A model generated the notes under the pieces. It ran no database searches. It saw nothing but the letters and a program-made list of their open reading frames with translations, and had not been told where the DNA came from. Made by a program: the position numbers and the translations under genes. This document shows, piece by piece, positions 19,376 to 53,082 of a stretch of 64,000 bases of DNA; positions within the stretch are counted from its first letter, which is position 1, and every line of letters starts with the position of its first letter. Source of the DNA: Fimbriimonadaceae bacterium (GTDB taxonomy: Bacteria; Armatimonadota; Fimbriimonadia; Fimbriimonadales; Fimbriimonadaceae); contig CP075365.1 of assembly GCA_019454125.1 (NCBI GenBank), forward strand, positions 862,218 through 926,217, in the 5' to 3' direction.

Positions 19376-20101
19376 TTAGGCCTTGCGGCGGCGAGCGACG
19401 AGAGCGGCGAGGCCCGTGCCGAGAGCGAGCATCGTGGCGGGCTCCGGAACGACGTTGACCGCGTAGCTGTAGTTGTTGGCGAGCGGGGTGACGGCGCCAG
19501 AGCCGAAGCCGTCGCCCGGGTTGATGCCCCAGCCGTTGTTGCCGCCCGGGTTGCCGCCCGAGTGGCCGAGCACGAAGGCCTGGCCGCCGGCGCCGAAGTC
19601 GCGCTTAATGGCCATGCCGATGAAGGCGCGGGACCCGCTGACGGCGAGGTTGAGTCCAGTGAACTCCTGGACGTAGGTCGGGTTGGTGGTGCCACCGACG
19701 CCGGTGATGCGGGTCGTGGTGCCCTGGGCAGCGTTGAGGTCGACCCAGCTCAGGACGCCGGGGCCGCCGTTGAGGCCGTTGCCGGAGTTGCCCGCGCTCT
19801 GCGGATCCGTGTAAATGGCGATGCGCCAGTCGAAGCTGTTGACGGGCATGGACGGGTCGGTGATCTCGAAGGCGATCGCGACCTTGTCGACTCGGTTCCC
19901 ACCATTGGTGTTAAAGTCGTCGATCGAAGTGCCGCTGAAGTCGCCGAAGTCGCCAAAGATCTGGACGACGCCGAAGTCAGTGATGGTGCTGAGCGAAGAA
20001 CCGCCAGGAGTGATCTGGTTCATCGCGTTATAGGTGTTGAGAAGCTGAGCGTTGGCAGCGACGGTGGCCGCAGCAAGAGCGAGAAGCAGCGTTTTCTTCA
20101 T
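19376..20101 (-). CDS. PEP-CTERM sorting-domain secreted protein A
   Basis: This 241-residue protein has a signal peptide (KKTLLLALAAATVAANA) and a beta-rich secreted domain with FSGTSIDDFNTNGGNRVDKV. A PEP-CTERM tail closes it: VVPEPATMLALGTG, then a hydrophobic stretch and the basic end RRRKA. PEP-CTERM proteins are recognised by exosortase and usually exported to the cell surface or matrix. No exosortase is in the window. It is a tandem paralogue of the gene at 20289-21017; most of the length is nearly identical, with differences mainly at the N-terminus and before the tail. Confidence 0.9.
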   Translation of the reverse strand: MKKTLLLALAAATVAANAQLLNTYNAMNQITPGGSSLSTITDFGVVQIFGDFGDFSGTSIDDFNTNGGNRVDKVAIAFEITDPSMPVNSFDWRIAIYTDPQSAGNSGNGLNGGPGVLSWVDLNAAQGTTTRITGVGGTTNPTYVQEFTGLNLAVSGSRAFIGMAIKRDFGAGGQAFVLGHSGGNPGGNNGWGINPGDGFGSGAVTPLANNYSYAVNVVPEPATMLALGTGLAALVARRRKA

Positions 20102-20288: not shown

Positions 20289-21017
20289 TTAGTTGCTGCG
20301 GCGTCGGCGAGCGATCGCAGCGAGGCCAGCGCCGAGCGCGAGCATCGTGGCCGGCTCCGGCACGACGTTGACCGCGTAGGCGTAGTTGTTGGCCGTCTGA
20401 AGGACGGCGCCGGACCCGAAGCCGTTGCCCGGGTTGATGCCGTAGCCGTTGAAGCCGCCGGGAGTGCCACCCACATTGCTGAGGATGAACGCCTGGCCGC
20501 CGAGACCGAAGTCGCGTCGGACAGCCATGCCGATGTAGGCAGTGGAGCCGCTAACAGCGAGGTTCAGACCGGAGAACTCCTGGATGTAGGTCGGGTTGGT
20601 GGTGCCACCAACACCGGTGATGCGGGTCGTGGTGCCCTGGGCAGCGTTGAGGTCGACCCAGCTGAGGACGCCGCCGCCGCTGTTGAGGCCGTTGCCCGAG
20701 TTACCAGCGCCGTTCGGGCTGCTGTAGATGGCGATGCGCCAATCGAAGCTGTTGATCGGCATGGACGGGTCGGTGATCTCGAAAGCGATGGCGACCTTGT
20801 CGACTCGGTTCCCACCACCGGTGTTGAAGTCGTCGATCGAGGTGCCGCTGAACTCGGGGAAGTCACCGAAGATCTGAACGACGCCGAAGTCCGGGGTCGA
20901 AACGAGGCTAGCACCGCCAGGGGTGATCTGGTCCATGCTGTTGTAAGGGCCATTAACGAGCTGGGCGTTAGCGGCAACCGCGATGGCCACGAGCGACAGA
21001 GAAAGCAGGGTTCGCAT
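20289..21017 (-). CDS. PEP-CTERM sorting-domain secreted protein B
   Basis: The protein is 243 residues from the ATG at 21017, which has AAGGAA six bases upstream; an ATG two codons earlier (21023) is also possible. It has a signal peptide (RTLLSLSLVAIAVAANA), the same secreted beta domain as its neighbour (FSGTSIDDFNTGGGNRVDKV) and the tail VVPEPATMLALGAG plus RRRRSN. The gene is followed by a strong intrinsic terminator, then by its paralogue, so the two have separate transcripts. Function is unknown; a surface or matrix structural role is the usual guess. Confidence 0.9.
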   Translation of the reverse strand: MRTLLSLSLVAIAVAANAQLVNGPYNSMDQITPGGASLVSTPDFGVVQIFGDFPEFSGTSIDDFNTGGGNRVDKVAIAFEITDPSMPINSFDWRIAIYSSPNGAGNSGNGLNSGGGVLSWVDLNAAQGTTTRITGVGGTTNPTYIQEFSGLNLAVSGSTAYIGMAVRRDFGLGGQAFILSNVGGTPGGFNGYGINPGNGFGSGAVLQTANNYAYAVNVVPEPATMLALGAGLAAIARRRRSN

Positions 21018-21204
21018 GTTCATTTCCTTTTTGTCCTCCGATTGGAAGAACCCGCCGACGCTAGTTCGGCAGTGCACGTTTACTGTGCGATTCGTATGGT
21101 ACATCTAGATCGCGGCCAATGTCCATCATCTAGAGACAAACAGGCAGAATTGCCTGTCACTTTGTCTGGCCAGGCACTAGACCCTGTCTATTTCCCCGGG
21201 GAGG

Positions 21205-24942: not shown

Positions 24943-25992
24943 TTAAATCAACGCGATTTCCGGTCCGCCCGGCAAAACTCGGCCGATGAGGACGCTCCCT
25001 TCCACCGGCCGGGCGCTTGCGACCGCCAGCCCGCCACTGGTCTGGGGGTCCAGGGCAAGCTGCACCAGCCACGAAGGCACCCCATCGCTGATTCTTAACC
25101 GGTCTGCAAGGAACTCTCGCGTGCGCGTCGCGCCACCCGTCACGCATCCTTCCGCGACCATGCGCTCGATTCCGGGGAGGACGGGGAGCTTGGCGCACTC
25201 AATCTCGATCGCGACCCCGCTTGAACGCGCAATGTTGAAGAGGTGGCCGGCAAGGCCGAACCCGGTGACGTCCGTCGCGCAGCGCGCGCCCGCGGCCAGC
25301 GCCGCTTCCGCGGCGGCTGCATTGAGGGTGGACATGGATTCGATCGCCGCCGCAAGCTCGTCAGGTCGGCAGCGGTCGTTCTTCGCGGCAGTGGTGGCGA
25401 TGCCCGTGCCGAGGGGCTTGCTCAGCCAAATCCCGTCGCCAGGCTCGGCCAGGTCGTTGCGCAAGATTTTGTCCGGATCGACCAAGCCGGTGACGCTCAT
25501 GCCGAACTTCGGCATCGGGTCGTCGATGGTGTGCCCGCCCACGACGACGGCGCCCGCTTCCACCGTCTTGTCGTGCATCCCCAGCAGCACTTGCGCCCAG
25601 ACCTCGGGCGGCGCGGCGGTCGGATCGAAGCAGGCGATGTTCATCACCGTGATCGGGCGGCCCCCCATGGCGTAAACGTCGCTCAGGGCGTTCGCGGCCG
25701 CGATCTGGCCGTAGGAGTAGGGATCGTCGACGATCGGTGTGAAGAAGTCCATCGTCTGCACCAGGGCCGTACGGCGGTGCCCCTCCTTCTCCCCGGGGTG
25801 TGAACCAGCTCCCCCAAACAAAGGGGAGGCTCCGGAAGGCACCAGAAAGACGCCCGCGTCGTCGGACGTTTCAAAGCCGACGAGCAGGTCGGGGTTCGCA
25901 GACCGCGGCAAACGGCCGAGGACCTCGGCCAACTGGGCTGGGCCCAGCTTGCTCGCTCAACCCGCGCAGGCGACCAGGTGCGTCAAACGCAT
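24943..25992 (-). CDS. selD: Selenide, water dikinase, selenocysteine-containing (in-frame UGA)
   Basis: SelD makes selenophosphate from selenide and ATP, the Se donor for Sec-tRNA and selenouridine. The usual ORF begins only at 25932, after the catalytic loop. Reading upstream in the same frame gives the ATG at 25992 and MRLTHLVACAG-U-ASKLGP, with UGA (25957-25959) at the catalytic Cys/Sec position of the family and the conserved Lys following. Later motifs are QTMDFFTPIVDDPYSYGQIA and ALSDVYAMGGRP. A hairpin with a GGUC apical loop lies downstream of the UGA. A Pro/Gly-rich insertion follows DDAGVFLV. Length is 349 residues counting Sec. Confidence 0.92.
25776..25843. repeat. Palindromic element inside selD coding sequence
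   Basis: A 68-bp segment bounded by GGTGCC/GGCACC inverted ends contains a further CTCCCC/GGGGAG-type hairpin. It encodes the extra residues after DDAGVFLV that other SelD proteins lack as far as I recall. Confidence 0.45.
25910..25956 (-). promoter_or_regulatory. Candidate bacterial SECIS element in selD
   Basis: Downstream of the UGA on the minus strand, GGCCGAG pairs with CTCGGCC around a GTC loop, starting about 27 bases after the UGA with the apical loop at about 34-36. The GGUC at the tip resembles the SelB-binding loop of E. coli fdhF. Confidence 0.6.
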
Positions 25993-26031: not shown

Positions 26032-27033
26032 TTATGGTTCGGTCGTCAACTCCCGGCTTTCCACTTCCGTGCCCGCGACACCGACCATGTGCGTCCCATT
26101 GCGGTCGAGCCACTCGAGGAGTTGCCCGATGCTGCCCCGCGCCAGGCCGATGCACGTGTCCGCCGCGCCATAGTAGAGGTTCACGGTGTCGCCGTCGTCG
26201 CCCACCGTGTAGCCACACGGGAACACCACGTAGGGCACGTCGCCTTCGATCTCATAGCGCTCGACCGGCGCCATCATCCAGGTTTCGCCGCGCAAGAGGC
26301 ACACCTCCGGCCGCTCCAGATCGAAGAGGGCCAGCCCGAGACGATAGATCGCCCCGGACGCGTGGCGTCGCACGCCGTGGTACATCACGATCCAGCCGCG
26401 CGGGGTCTCGATCGGCGGCGGCGATAGCCCGATCTTGTTCGCGTCCCACCAGGCGCCAAGGCGGGCGGGAAGCATCTGGCGGTGGCCGCCCCAGTTCCGC
26501 AGGTCGGGCGACTGCGAGATCCACATGTGCGAGCCCTGCTCGGTGGTCGGCCGGTGGATCAGGACGAACTGGTCGTCGAACAGGCGCGGCAGGAGGGCCG
26601 CGTCCTTGTCGTCCGGCTGCATCACGAGGCCCAGCCGCTCAAACGTCTTGAAGTCTTCGGTCGTGGCCAGCGCGACCCCCGGGCCTGTCTTGCTGTACGC
26701 GGTGTAGGCGATGACATACTTTCCGAGGTCGGGGACGAACGTGATGCGCGGGTCCTCGATCCCCCAAAGCTCTTCGGCATGGTTGGCCGGGTCTGGGGCG
26801 AAGGTCGGGGAAGGGTCGATCTGCCAGTCCGTCACCCCATCGGCCGACCGGGCGGCGGTCAGGTGCGAGATCCCTCGCCGGTCCTCGCATCGGCACAGGA
26901 GCAGGGTCGTTCCGTCCTGGAGCCGCGTGGCCCCCGGGTTGAAGACCGAATGAATGGGGTAAGGCCAATCGGAGGCCTTAAGAATCGGGTTCTGCGGTTC
27001 ACGGACGAACAGCTGTTCATACCCATCGTGCAT
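26032..27033 (-). CDS. GH130-family glycosidase/phosphorylase
   Basis: This five-bladed beta-propeller protein of the GH130 family contains beta-1,4-mannosyl-oligosaccharide phosphorylase-type motifs: NPILKASDWPYPIHSVFNPG, LLLCRCEDRRGISHLTAARS and WGIEDPRITFV with the catalytic Asp. GH130 enzymes phosphorolyse or hydrolyse beta-mannosides. The frame is open to a start at 27129, but the family homology begins near MHDGYEQLF (27033), which gives a normal 333 residues. It is divergent from a glycosyltransferase fusion gene, so the two may act on the same glycan. Confidence 0.85.
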   Translation of the reverse strand: MHDGYEQLFVREPQNPILKASDWPYPIHSVFNPGATRLQDGTTLLLCRCEDRRGISHLTAARSADGVTDWQIDPSPTFAPDPANHAEELWGIEDPRITFVPDLGKYVIAYTAYSKTGPGVALATTEDFKTFERLGLVMQPDDKDAALLPRLFDDQFVLIHRPTTEQGSHMWISQSPDLRNWGGHRQMLPARLGAWWDANKIGLSPPPIETPRGWIVMYHGVRRHASGAIYRLGLALFDLERPEVCLLRGETWMMAPVERYEIEGDVPYVVFPCGYTVGDDGDTVNLYYGAADTCIGLARGSIGQLLEWLDRNGTHMVGVAGTEVESRELTTEP

Positions 27034-27293
27034 AGCGTAATGTTCGAGCTGGCTGGAGACAGGCACGGGCACACTGGTTGGAAACGTATTCCTGTGGACC
27101 CCGGCTGACCTTTTGCTCAGGCCGAACATACCTGCCGGTTTTTCGGCTTTGCCCGAGGGGGCCCCTAAATTCCCGGCAGACTCTTACAGAAACTTTATGG
27201 GCCCTGCCTGACCTCTTTGCCAGGTTCTCACACAAGCGGGCGTAGAGCTAGGTATGCGGGGAGATCGGTTGTGAAATACCCCCGGGATGACTC
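27034..27293. other. Divergent intergenic region between GH130 and glycosyltransferase genes
   Basis: This 260-bp gap holds a spaced inverted repeat (CTGCCGG near 27132 and CCGGCAG near 27173) and a GGCAG/CTGCC-rich stretch, but no ORF and no convincing -35/-10 pair. It presumably carries both promoters. The first 96 bp could code if the GH130 start is 27129. Confidence 0.4.
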
Positions 27294-29516
27294 ATGACTG
27301 TCACTTTACTTGGTAACCATCCGCCTCGGCGCTGCGGAATTGCCACATTTACAGCAGACCTCGCTGATGCTTTGGAAGGAAAAGGGTGCGACGTTGCGGT
27401 AATCGCAATGGACGATGGCAAAGAAAACCCGACCTATCCGTCGCGGGTCGGATTGACCATTGATAAGTGCGATCCCTATTCGCACGTCATGGCCGCAGAC
27501 TTTATCAATCAGCGTGGGGGCACGCTTTGCGTGCAACACGAGCACGGGATCTTTGGCGGGCCCGACGGTAGTGATCTCCTCCACCTTCTCCGCGGTGTCC
27601 AAGTTCCGGTCGTGACGACCCTTCACACGATCCTTTCTAGTCCCACCCAAGGGCAAAGGGACACAGTGCGGGCCATCGCCGACCTTTCGAGCCGCTTAGT
27701 CGTCATGAATCCGATAGCGGTTAAACTCTTACAGCGGGCTTATGGCATTGACTCTAGCAAAGTGTGCGTGATCGAGCACGGCGTGCACGAACCGCTTTCT
27801 CTCACCCGCGAGGAGGCCAAAGACCAGTTGGGTTGGATCGGGCGAAACATCCTCACATTTGGGCTGCTATCTCCGGGAAAGGGCATCGAGGCCATGGTCC
27901 GCGCGATGCCGGAGGTGTTAAAGTTTGCTCCAGAAGCCCGGTACGTGGTCGTCGGGCAGACACACCCCCACGTTAAGCGACAAAGTGGCGAGGCTTATCG
28001 AGCAAGCCTTGAGTCCCTCATCGAAGAATTAGGGATTTGCGGGAGCGTGGAGTTCGTCGACCGGTTCGTCGATCTCGAAGAGCTTTTGGTCATGCTTCAT
28101 GCCTGCGAGGTGTACGTGACTCCTTATCTGAACAGGGAGCAGATTACTTCGGGGACCTTGGCTTATGCGGTAGGTTCCGGCCGCGCCGTCGTCTCCACTG
28201 AGTACTGGCACGCGCAAGAGTTGCTCGGCGACGGCACCGGCCTTCTTGTGCCGCCGTCGGATCCCGCTGCGCTCGGCGAGGCGGTCGGCCGTTTGCTCGC
28301 CGACGAAGGGTTTAGAAAGGGAGTAGAGGCCCGCGCGACGCAAAAGGCGCAGACCATGACTTGGAAACAAGTCGGCGCGGAGTACACGCGCACTTTCGGA
28401 CAGTGTCTCCGCGAATACGTGCCTTCTCGAGAGGCGACCCTTGCCCGCTCCTTCGACGGGGAAGTTCCTAACCTTTTCCATTTGCAGGCGCTGACCGACG
28501 ACACCGGAATCCTGCAACATGCGAACTACGACATTCCGAACCGTCGTGAGGGGTATTGCACAGACGACAACGCCCGCGCCCTCTCCCTGGTCTTAGAACT
28601 CGGTAACGTCTATGGGTGGGATCCTAACCTGGTTCGATTAGAGGCCGTCTACGCCAGCTTTCTTGAATACGCCTATAACGAGAAATGCGGAAAGTTCCGA
28701 AATTTCATGGATTTCCGACGCCATTGGCTGGAGGATGAGGGGAGCGAAGAAAGCCAGGGCAGGGCCTTCGCAGCCCTCGGGCGGTTAGCCCGCTACGGTT
28801 CAAATATCGGCCGCAAGACCCTCGGCGAGAGCCTGTTCCGTCAAGCGCTGCCGAGCATCAAGGAGATGCGTTACGTCCGCTCCCGGGCGAACGCGCTCAT
28901 AGGTCTCGTAGACCTTACGACGGAAGTTTGGCGCGAAGAGTACGCGCACCTTGCGGGCCAACTGGCGCAGGAGATTCTCGCGCAGTGTCGCGATGAAGAA
29001 GGATGGAAGTGGCCTGAAGAGTCTATGACTTATGACAACGGCCGGTTTGCCGAAGCGCTTATCGCATATGGCTACGAGTTCCAAAACGTTAAAAGTCTGA
29101 GCCAAGGCCTAGAGATCCTAGAGCATGTCACGGCTGTGCACACGGGCCCCGGCGGAGTCTTCCTTCCGATCGGGTGCCACGGGTTTCATCCGGGCGGGGG
29201 CCCCCGCGCGGTCTTCGACCAACAGCCGATCGAGGCGATGTCCATCGTACTGGCTTGTGCCCGTGCATTCGAAGCGACCGGGCGGCGCAAATGGATCCGC
29301 GAGGCGGAGCGCGCCTACCGATGGTTCGAGGGCGAAAACGCCGTCGGCGTCCCGGTCATCCCACCGGACGGGACCGGCGCTTACGATGGTCTCGCCCCCG
29401 ATGGGCCCAGCTTGAACCGGGGCGCGGAATCGACGATCGCTTACTTGACGTCGCGCGTTGTCTACGAGGGCCTCATCCAGCGGGTCGCGCCTTGGGAAGC
29501 CGTGACCGTCTGTTAG
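27294..29516 (+). CDS. GT4 glycosyltransferase fused to an alpha/alpha-toroid glycosidase-like domain
   Basis: The N-terminal part (about 1-385) is a GT-B glycosyltransferase: HPPRRCGIATFTADLADAL at the start, acceptor region, then FGLLSPGKGIEAMVRAMPEV and the donor-site pattern TSGTLAYAVGSGRAVVST. The C-terminal part (about 390-740) is an all-helical region with NRREGYCTDDNARALSL, MTYDNGRFAEALIAYG and SLNRGAESTIAYL, like six-hairpin glycosidases. It is divergent from GH130. Together they suggest synthesis and remodelling of a mannoside; the substrate is inference. The final Ser-Leu-Asn-Arg-Gly-Ala-Glu block is strongly conserved in such fusions. Confidence 0.85.
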   Translation: MTVTLLGNHPPRRCGIATFTADLADALEGKGCDVAVIAMDDGKENPTYPSRVGLTIDKCDPYSHVMAADFINQRGGTLCVQHEHGIFGGPDGSDLLHLLRGVQVPVVTTLHTILSSPTQGQRDTVRAIADLSSRLVVMNPIAVKLLQRAYGIDSSKVCVIEHGVHEPLSLTREEAKDQLGWIGRNILTFGLLSPGKGIEAMVRAMPEVLKFAPEARYVVVGQTHPHVKRQSGEAYRASLESLIEELGICGSVEFVDRFVDLEELLVMLHACEVYVTPYLNREQITSGTLAYAVGSGRAVVSTEYWHAQELLGDGTGLLVPPSDPAALGEAVGRLLADEGFRKGVEARATQKAQTMTWKQVGAEYTRTFGQCLREYVPSREATLARSFDGEVPNLFHLQALTDDTGILQHANYDIPNRREGYCTDDNARALSLVLELGNVYGWDPNLVRLEAVYASFLEYAYNEKCGKFRNFMDFRRHWLEDEGSEESQGRAFAALGRLARYGSNIGRKTLGESLFRQALPSIKEMRYVRSRANALIGLVDLTTEVWREEYAHLAGQLAQEILAQCRDEEGWKWPEESMTYDNGRFAEALIAYGYEFQNVKSLSQGLEILEHVTAVHTGPGGVFLPIGCHGFHPGGGPRAVFDQQPIEAMSIVLACARAFEATGRRKWIREAERAYRWFEGENAVGVPVIPPDGTGAYDGLAPDGPSLNRGAESTIAYLTSRVVYEGLIQRVAPWEAVTVC

Positions 29517-52526: not shown

Positions 52527-52566
52527 TTTTAGGTTCAAACCGGCCCAGGGGGTGACACGTCCTCTT

Positions 52567-52595
52567 CATGCCTCGGCATGCCCCGTGCCGAGGCT
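52567..52595 (+). repeat. Palindromic repeat unit 1
   Basis: CATGCCTCGGCAT then GCCCC then GTGCCGAGGCT: near-perfect hairpin (GCCTCGGCAY/GTGCCGAGGC) with a 5-base centre. One mismatch to the consensus. Confidence 0.85.
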
Positions 52596-52666
52596 AAACT
52601 GGTCAATCGCGAGGCTTGCCCGGAGGGCAGCCAGCAGCCCGAACACTTACCAGGTTTACAGCATCT

Positions 52667-52695
52667 CATGCCTCGGCACGCCCCGTGCCGAGGCT
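52667..52695 (+). repeat. Palindromic repeat unit 2
   Basis: Consensus form with perfect stem GCCTCGGCAC/GTGCCGAGGC and centre GCCCC. It is followed by the shared CTTTCGATGGTGCC sequence. Confidence 0.85.
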
Positions 52696-52727
52696 CTTTC
52701 GATGGTGCCCGGGCGCGGATGGGTTCT

Positions 52728-52756
52728 CATGCCTCGGCACGCCTCGTGCCGAGGCT
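52728..52756 (+). repeat. Palindromic repeat unit 3
   Basis: Perfect stem with centre GCCTC. It is 61 bp from unit 2. Confidence 0.85.
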
Positions 52757-52835
52757 AGACTCCTGCCGTGCGTAATCGGCACTGGACGAACTGGGCGCAG
52801 GCCGCCGGTGGCGTTCGTGACCACGACCGCACTCT

Positions 52836-52864
52836 CATGCCTCGGCACGCCCCGTGCCGAGGCT
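52836..52864 (+). repeat. Palindromic repeat unit 4
   Basis: Same as unit 2, including the following CTTTCGATGGTGCC sequence; part of the longer direct repeat. Confidence 0.85.
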
Positions 52865-52954
52865 CTTTCGATGGTGCCGTGGCGCGGATGGGTGAGACTT
52901 GGTCATGGGGTCGGGAGTGCACGACGTACACGAATCGAAGGCGTTGTCTGGGAC

Positions 52955-52983
52955 AGCCTCGGCACGGGGTGTGCCGAGGCATG
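52955..52983 (-). repeat. Palindromic repeat unit 5 (inverted)
   Basis: The same repeat in the opposite orientation, ending in CATG on the minus strand; centre ACCCC when read on the minus strand. Confidence 0.85.
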
Positions 52984-53082
52984 AAGAAACCAACGAGAAG
53001 AGAGCGTTCACCAGGCAGAGTTACTAGGTTACCACTCTCCCGTAGCGCTCGCTAAGTGAAGAATACGTATTCATGGCGTATC

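Follow-up and report, generated by a model that had tools for sequence, protein, structure and literature searches.

A selenophosphate synthetase of Fimbriimonadaceae (Armatimonadota) predicted to contain selenocysteine and to be decoded through a conserved hairpin region

Results and discussion

Identification of the selD gene

The analysed stretch of 64,000 nucleotides (the window) belongs to a Fimbriimonadaceae genome of the phylum Armatimonadota, a single contig of 2.65 Mb (C1), and its reverse strand carries selD, which almost certainly encodes a functional selenophosphate synthetase (selenide water dikinase, SelD) that is itself a selenoprotein. The gene occupies positions 24943-25992 (-). 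It starts with an ATG at 25992-25990, ends with a TAA at 24943-24945 and has a TGA at codon 12 (25957-25959), after which the frame is open. Read with selenocysteine (Sec) at this codon, the frame gives a protein of 349 residues that begins MRLTHLVACAG-U-ASKLGPAQ, and translation confirms the start, the UGA position and the string VACAG-U-ASKLGP reported in the initial annotation of this DNA. The nearest named relatives are metagenome-assembled genomes (MAGs) labelled Fimbriimonadaceae, Armatimonadetes and Chthonomonas.

The assignment to the SelD family is clear. The full frame scores 339.4 bits against the TIGR00476 selD profile, above the curated cut-off of 125, and matches both Pfam AIRS domains, PF00586 and PF02769. 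E. coli SelD (3u0o) is matched by phmmer with an E-value of 1.7e-62; in this alignment U12 falls on Cys17 and Lys15, three residues past Sec12, on Lys20. We take Cys17 to be the catalytic Cys/Sec position and Lys20 to be the essential lysine, and on this basis the UGA lies where the initial annotation had placed it, in the catalytic loop.

SelD of this genome also contains an extra segment of about 20 residues, ASPLFGGAGSHPGEKEGHRR (25771-25830, -). At the same place, the other species of the genus has a segment of comparable length with another sequence, and among the relatives compared, other genera have none there. We considered an inserted repeat element as its origin and found no support for this, since its DNA occurs only once in the genome. 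The DNA of the segment has C-rich and G-rich stretches that are complementary to each other.

The neighbours of selD lie on opposite strands and comprise a GH130 mannoside-phosphorylase-like gene (window 26032-27129) and a glycosyltransferase gene with a long C-terminal part (27294-29516); a family search of both revealed no link to selenium. Elsewhere, the window contains five near-identical palindromic units of 30 bases, TCATGCCTCGGCACGCCCCGTGCCGAGGCT, at 52563-52987, one of them inverted relative to the other four. Two tandem genes for secreted proteins (19376-20101 and 20289-21104), 78% identical over a 300-base part of their DNA, encode C-terminal PEP-CTERM-like tails (VPEPATMLALG...RRR).

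Conservation of the UGA codon

We compared 48 SelD genes with a readable N-terminus, from 47 genomes of the family and one named MAG, as the initial annotation had suggested. The peptide RLTxxVxCAGU(A/G)xKLG around the Sec site is conserved across these genes, and the same codon is TGA in 45; the other three have TGT, TGT and TGC, all coding for Cys. By this comparison, an identical in-frame TGA at codon 12 is far beyond chance expectation. Across Armatimonadota, SelD is found in 144 of 291 genomes, with an in-frame TGA in most of the SelD matches that cover the N-terminus. TGA is one base away from the Cys codons, so that a TGC or TGT misread in sequencing, or a pseudogene, could produce the same picture in one genome. 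The recurrence of the same TGA in 45 SelD genes from separate genomes and in the majority of those across the phylum, together with the intact remainder of the frame, already refutes this explanation at the level of sequence comparison, and we assign it a negligible probability.

The frame also contains a shorter, uninterrupted ORF of 329 residues with a TTG start at 25932. It is the form in which an ordinary ORF listing gives the gene, and it could be taken as the true product, a truncated SelD or SelD-like protein with the upstream frame untranslated. This start lies 3′ of both the Sec codon and Lys15, within the predicted SECIS region (see below), and the short product would have neither the Sec/Cys loop nor the lysine, in line with the loss of the catalytic loop noted earlier. 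The 48 genes show protein-level conservation of the peptide upstream of the TTG; they include the three Cys types, in which the frame is uninterrupted. Translation from the TTG alone is therefore very improbable, and the long frame with Sec at codon 12 remains our reading of the gene.

The three genomes with Cys-type SelD (G084, G054 and G036) all retain tRNA-Sec, which indicates that other selenoproteins matter too. The other members of the genus in which G084 nests have TGA, so the SelD of G084 most likely underwent a change from Sec to Cys. Among the 85 genomes of the family, SelD is present in 49 and tRNA-Sec in 48; 47 have both, 35 have neither, and only three are discordant (Fisher p ~3e-20). 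Two of the discordant genomes are drafts, 74-88% complete, and in the third (G018) SelD is distant, at 45% identity.

Sec-decoding machinery

A Sec-containing SelD had led the initial annotation to expect selA, selB and selC in the genome, and all three are found. The tRNA-Sec gene (C1:545999-546088; 78 bits) has a UCA anticodon, and selA (C1:2178945-2180252; 456 bits) and selB (C1:678228-680051; 360 bits) both have open frames. These genes and selD are scattered over the genome and do not form a cluster. No selenoproteins were recognised near selA, selB or selC when the ORFs of the three neighbourhoods were inspected by eye. A SelD search of the genome yields no second selD; the arrangement that would have spoken against the initial annotation, a Cys-type selD elsewhere and a degraded copy here, does not occur.

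By itself, an in-frame UGA does not identify the residue that it encodes, and a changed code or near-cognate suppression could place another amino acid at codon 12. UGA is, however, the ordinary stop of 14 of the 36 genes in the window, which argues for Sec recoding and against a changed code. The presence of tRNA-Sec, selA, selB and a SECIS-type hairpin speaks against another amino acid, as does the fact that Cys is the only substitute at the SelD UGA site. Insertion of a residue other than Sec thus appears highly unlikely.

Predicted SECIS region

Two abutting hairpins follow the UGA. Their structure was written down by inspection before RNAalifold was run on 34 distinct UGA-type sequences, which gave the same structure, at columns 11-29 and 30-46 with the U of the UGA as column 1. 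The second hairpin, H2 (25914-25930, -), has a six-pair stem and an apical loop GGUCC (25924-25920) 32 nt past the UGA; three of its pairs are changed on both sides within the alignment. The first, H1 (25931-25949, -; AAGCUGG...CCAGUU), lies directly 5′ of H2, with 94.5% of cells paired and one pair changed on both sides. Taken together, 95% of cells in H1 and H2 pair, and both-side changes occur in 26 cells; shuffles give 6.9 and slid registers 0-7.

The pairing is visible in the protein. With the UGA as codon one, H2 pairs 31-45 and 33-43 join bases 1 and 3 of the eleventh codon (Ala/Ser/Thr) to bases 3 and 1 of the fifteenth (Arg/Gly), so that the choice of amino acid and of codon tracks the RNA pairing. 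Across the family, the apical loop of H2 is GGUNC or CGUGC and lies 32 nt after the UGA. Of 20 more distant SelD genes of Armatimonadota, most have H2 at an unchanged distance from the UGA, often with the sequence GCGCAGGUNCUGCGC; H1 is less regular in register than H2. In the three Cys-type genes, inspected by eye, H2 is not kept in register.

The published model of the bacterial SECIS describes a stem-loop 16-37 nt after the UGA with a G among the first two positions of the loop (PMC13188914). The distance of 32 nt from UGA to loop, the loop GGUCC and the covarying stem of H2 all agree with this model. The alignment thus provides strong evidence, in the form of compensatory changes, for H2 as the predicted SECIS; H1 is perhaps also part of the SECIS region. 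A single-sequence fold had pointed to H1 alone (AAGCUGGG...CCCAGUU) as the SECIS, and we rejected this candidate because the alignment favoured H2, the hairpin with the G-U loop. Single-sequence folds of the region are only moderately better than those of shuffles; depending on the stretch folded, z-scores range from -1.0 to -2.4. Codons 13-26 show less synonymous variation than other parts of selD (permutation p 0.0014), but values just as low occur in further windows of the gene, and this constraint adds little.

Promoter box and start of the mRNA

The initial annotation had cited a TAACCT box 7 bases before the ATG in support of readthrough. Its position is correct (26005-26000, -), and we refine its meaning: the box resembles a -10 promoter element and is best read as that of a leaderless transcript. 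TANNNT is conserved in the relatives: 42 of the 48 SelD genes have it 12-16 nt 5′ of the start codon, against an expectation of ~0.9% per position. Visual inspection shows no clear Shine-Dalgarno-like sequence before the selD start codons. The conserved spacing between box and start suggests that the selD mRNA is probably leaderless, with transcription starting at or next to the ATG, and leaderless mRNAs may be in use in Fimbriimonadaceae. The box is positioned for the upstream ATG and not for the TTG at 25932, which is a further argument against the truncated product discussed above.

A second selenoprotein

The initial annotation also anticipated further selenoproteins. A PF00578 search of the genome gave one match with an internal TGA (C1:1297465-1297893), within a gene outside the window (C1:1297453-1297974; TGA at C1:1297570-1297572) whose product contains the motif FLRHFG-U-VFCR. 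Queried with Cys for U, this protein is a member of PF13911 (AhpC-TSA_2), and its UGA falls at a CxxC site, giving UxxC. Homologues in the family have Cys or TGA at this position; TGA is read in this genome (G000), G053, G069, G054 and G078, all of which have tRNA-Sec. In G054, the UGA in this gene explains the retention of tRNA-Sec alongside a Cys-type SelD. Downstream of the UGA lies a hairpin whose loop is AGUU or similar and whose folding energy is unremarkable. The AhpC/TSA_2 gene rules out a self-serving loop in which SelD would be the sole selenoprotein. The AhpD/CMD family, another Sec candidate, gave no match over cut-off.

Sec-type formate dehydrogenase (FdhA) is the usual keeper of the Sec trait, and selenouridine is the usual second use of SelD. 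We therefore considered formate dehydrogenase as the other selenoprotein and rejected it: FdhA is over cut-off in 17 of the 85 family genomes, none with an in-frame stop, and this genome is not among them. The selenouridine synthase (mnmH/ybbB) is also missing, with no match in this genome and none over cut-off in the 85 genomes of the family, so SelD together with thiol-redox selenoproteins is a likely reason why the Sec trait persists in the family. Since neither Sec-type FdhA nor selenouridine is found, the family offers a good natural case for what sustains a Sec system. Zhang et al. found no bacterial selenoproteome that lacked both FdhA and SelD, and they proposed that species with selenouridine may retain Sec decoding for the sake of SelD (PMC1794560). 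As a wider and tentative proposal, possible rather than probable, the Fimbriimonadaceae may maintain the trait with neither Sec-type FdhA nor selenouridine, through the need of SelD for its own Sec and through a small number of thiol-redox selenoproteins, among them the UxxC AhpC/TSA_2 protein, with selD decoded from a leaderless mRNA through a two-hairpin SECIS.

Proposed mechanism

In the reading that we favour, transcription from the -10 box would begin at or beside the selD ATG, and the ribosome would reach the UGA at codon 12, where SelB, bound to the hairpin just downstream, would deliver the Sec-tRNA(Sec) that SelA has made. Together with Lys15, the Sec selenol of SelD would then catalyse the formation of selenophosphate from selenide and ATP, which SelA would use for more Sec-tRNA(Sec). 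As selenophosphate feeds the synthesis of Sec-tRNA(Sec), SelD would need its own output. It would also supply at least one other selenoprotein, the UxxC AhpC/TSA-like protein.

Comparison with known Sec-SelD systems

In the literature collection searched, no reports connect selenocysteine with Armatimonadota or selenoproteins with Fimbriimonas, and the phylum is unnamed in the selenium papers examined. The genome data indicate that selenocysteine is used in this widespread but little-studied phylum, where SelD is a conserved selenoprotein. Sec-containing SelD is exemplified by the enzyme of Haemophilus influenzae and by mammalian SEPHS2, and is already a known kind in bacteria (Mariotti et al.). 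New here are the lineage and the conservation throughout the phylum, together with a well-supported predicted SECIS that has a further hairpin beside it, a probable leaderless start, and the pairing of SelD with a UxxC AhpC/TSA_2 selenoprotein.

The SelD of this genome resembles known Sec-SelD in having Sec at the Cys17 equivalent with Lys three residues on (UxxK), an N-terminal selenium-binding loop, and AIRS and AIRS_C domains. It differs in its genus-specific 20-residue segment and the probable leaderless mRNA, and its loop reads CAGUASK, in contrast to GAGCGCK in E. coli SelD. As in bacterial Sec-SelD genes, the predicted SECIS directly follows the UGA. H2 is similar to the bacterial SECIS consensus (PMC13188914) in loop and spacing; in contrast to that consensus, the family has an extra conserved hairpin, H1, between the UGA and the SECIS hairpin. 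The second protein likewise resembles the predicted selenoprotein family pfam13911 (AhpC-TSA_2) in carrying Sec at the first Cys position of a redox motif, although that family is listed as UxxS (PMC9312934), whereas the motif found here is UxxC (FLRHFGUVFC).
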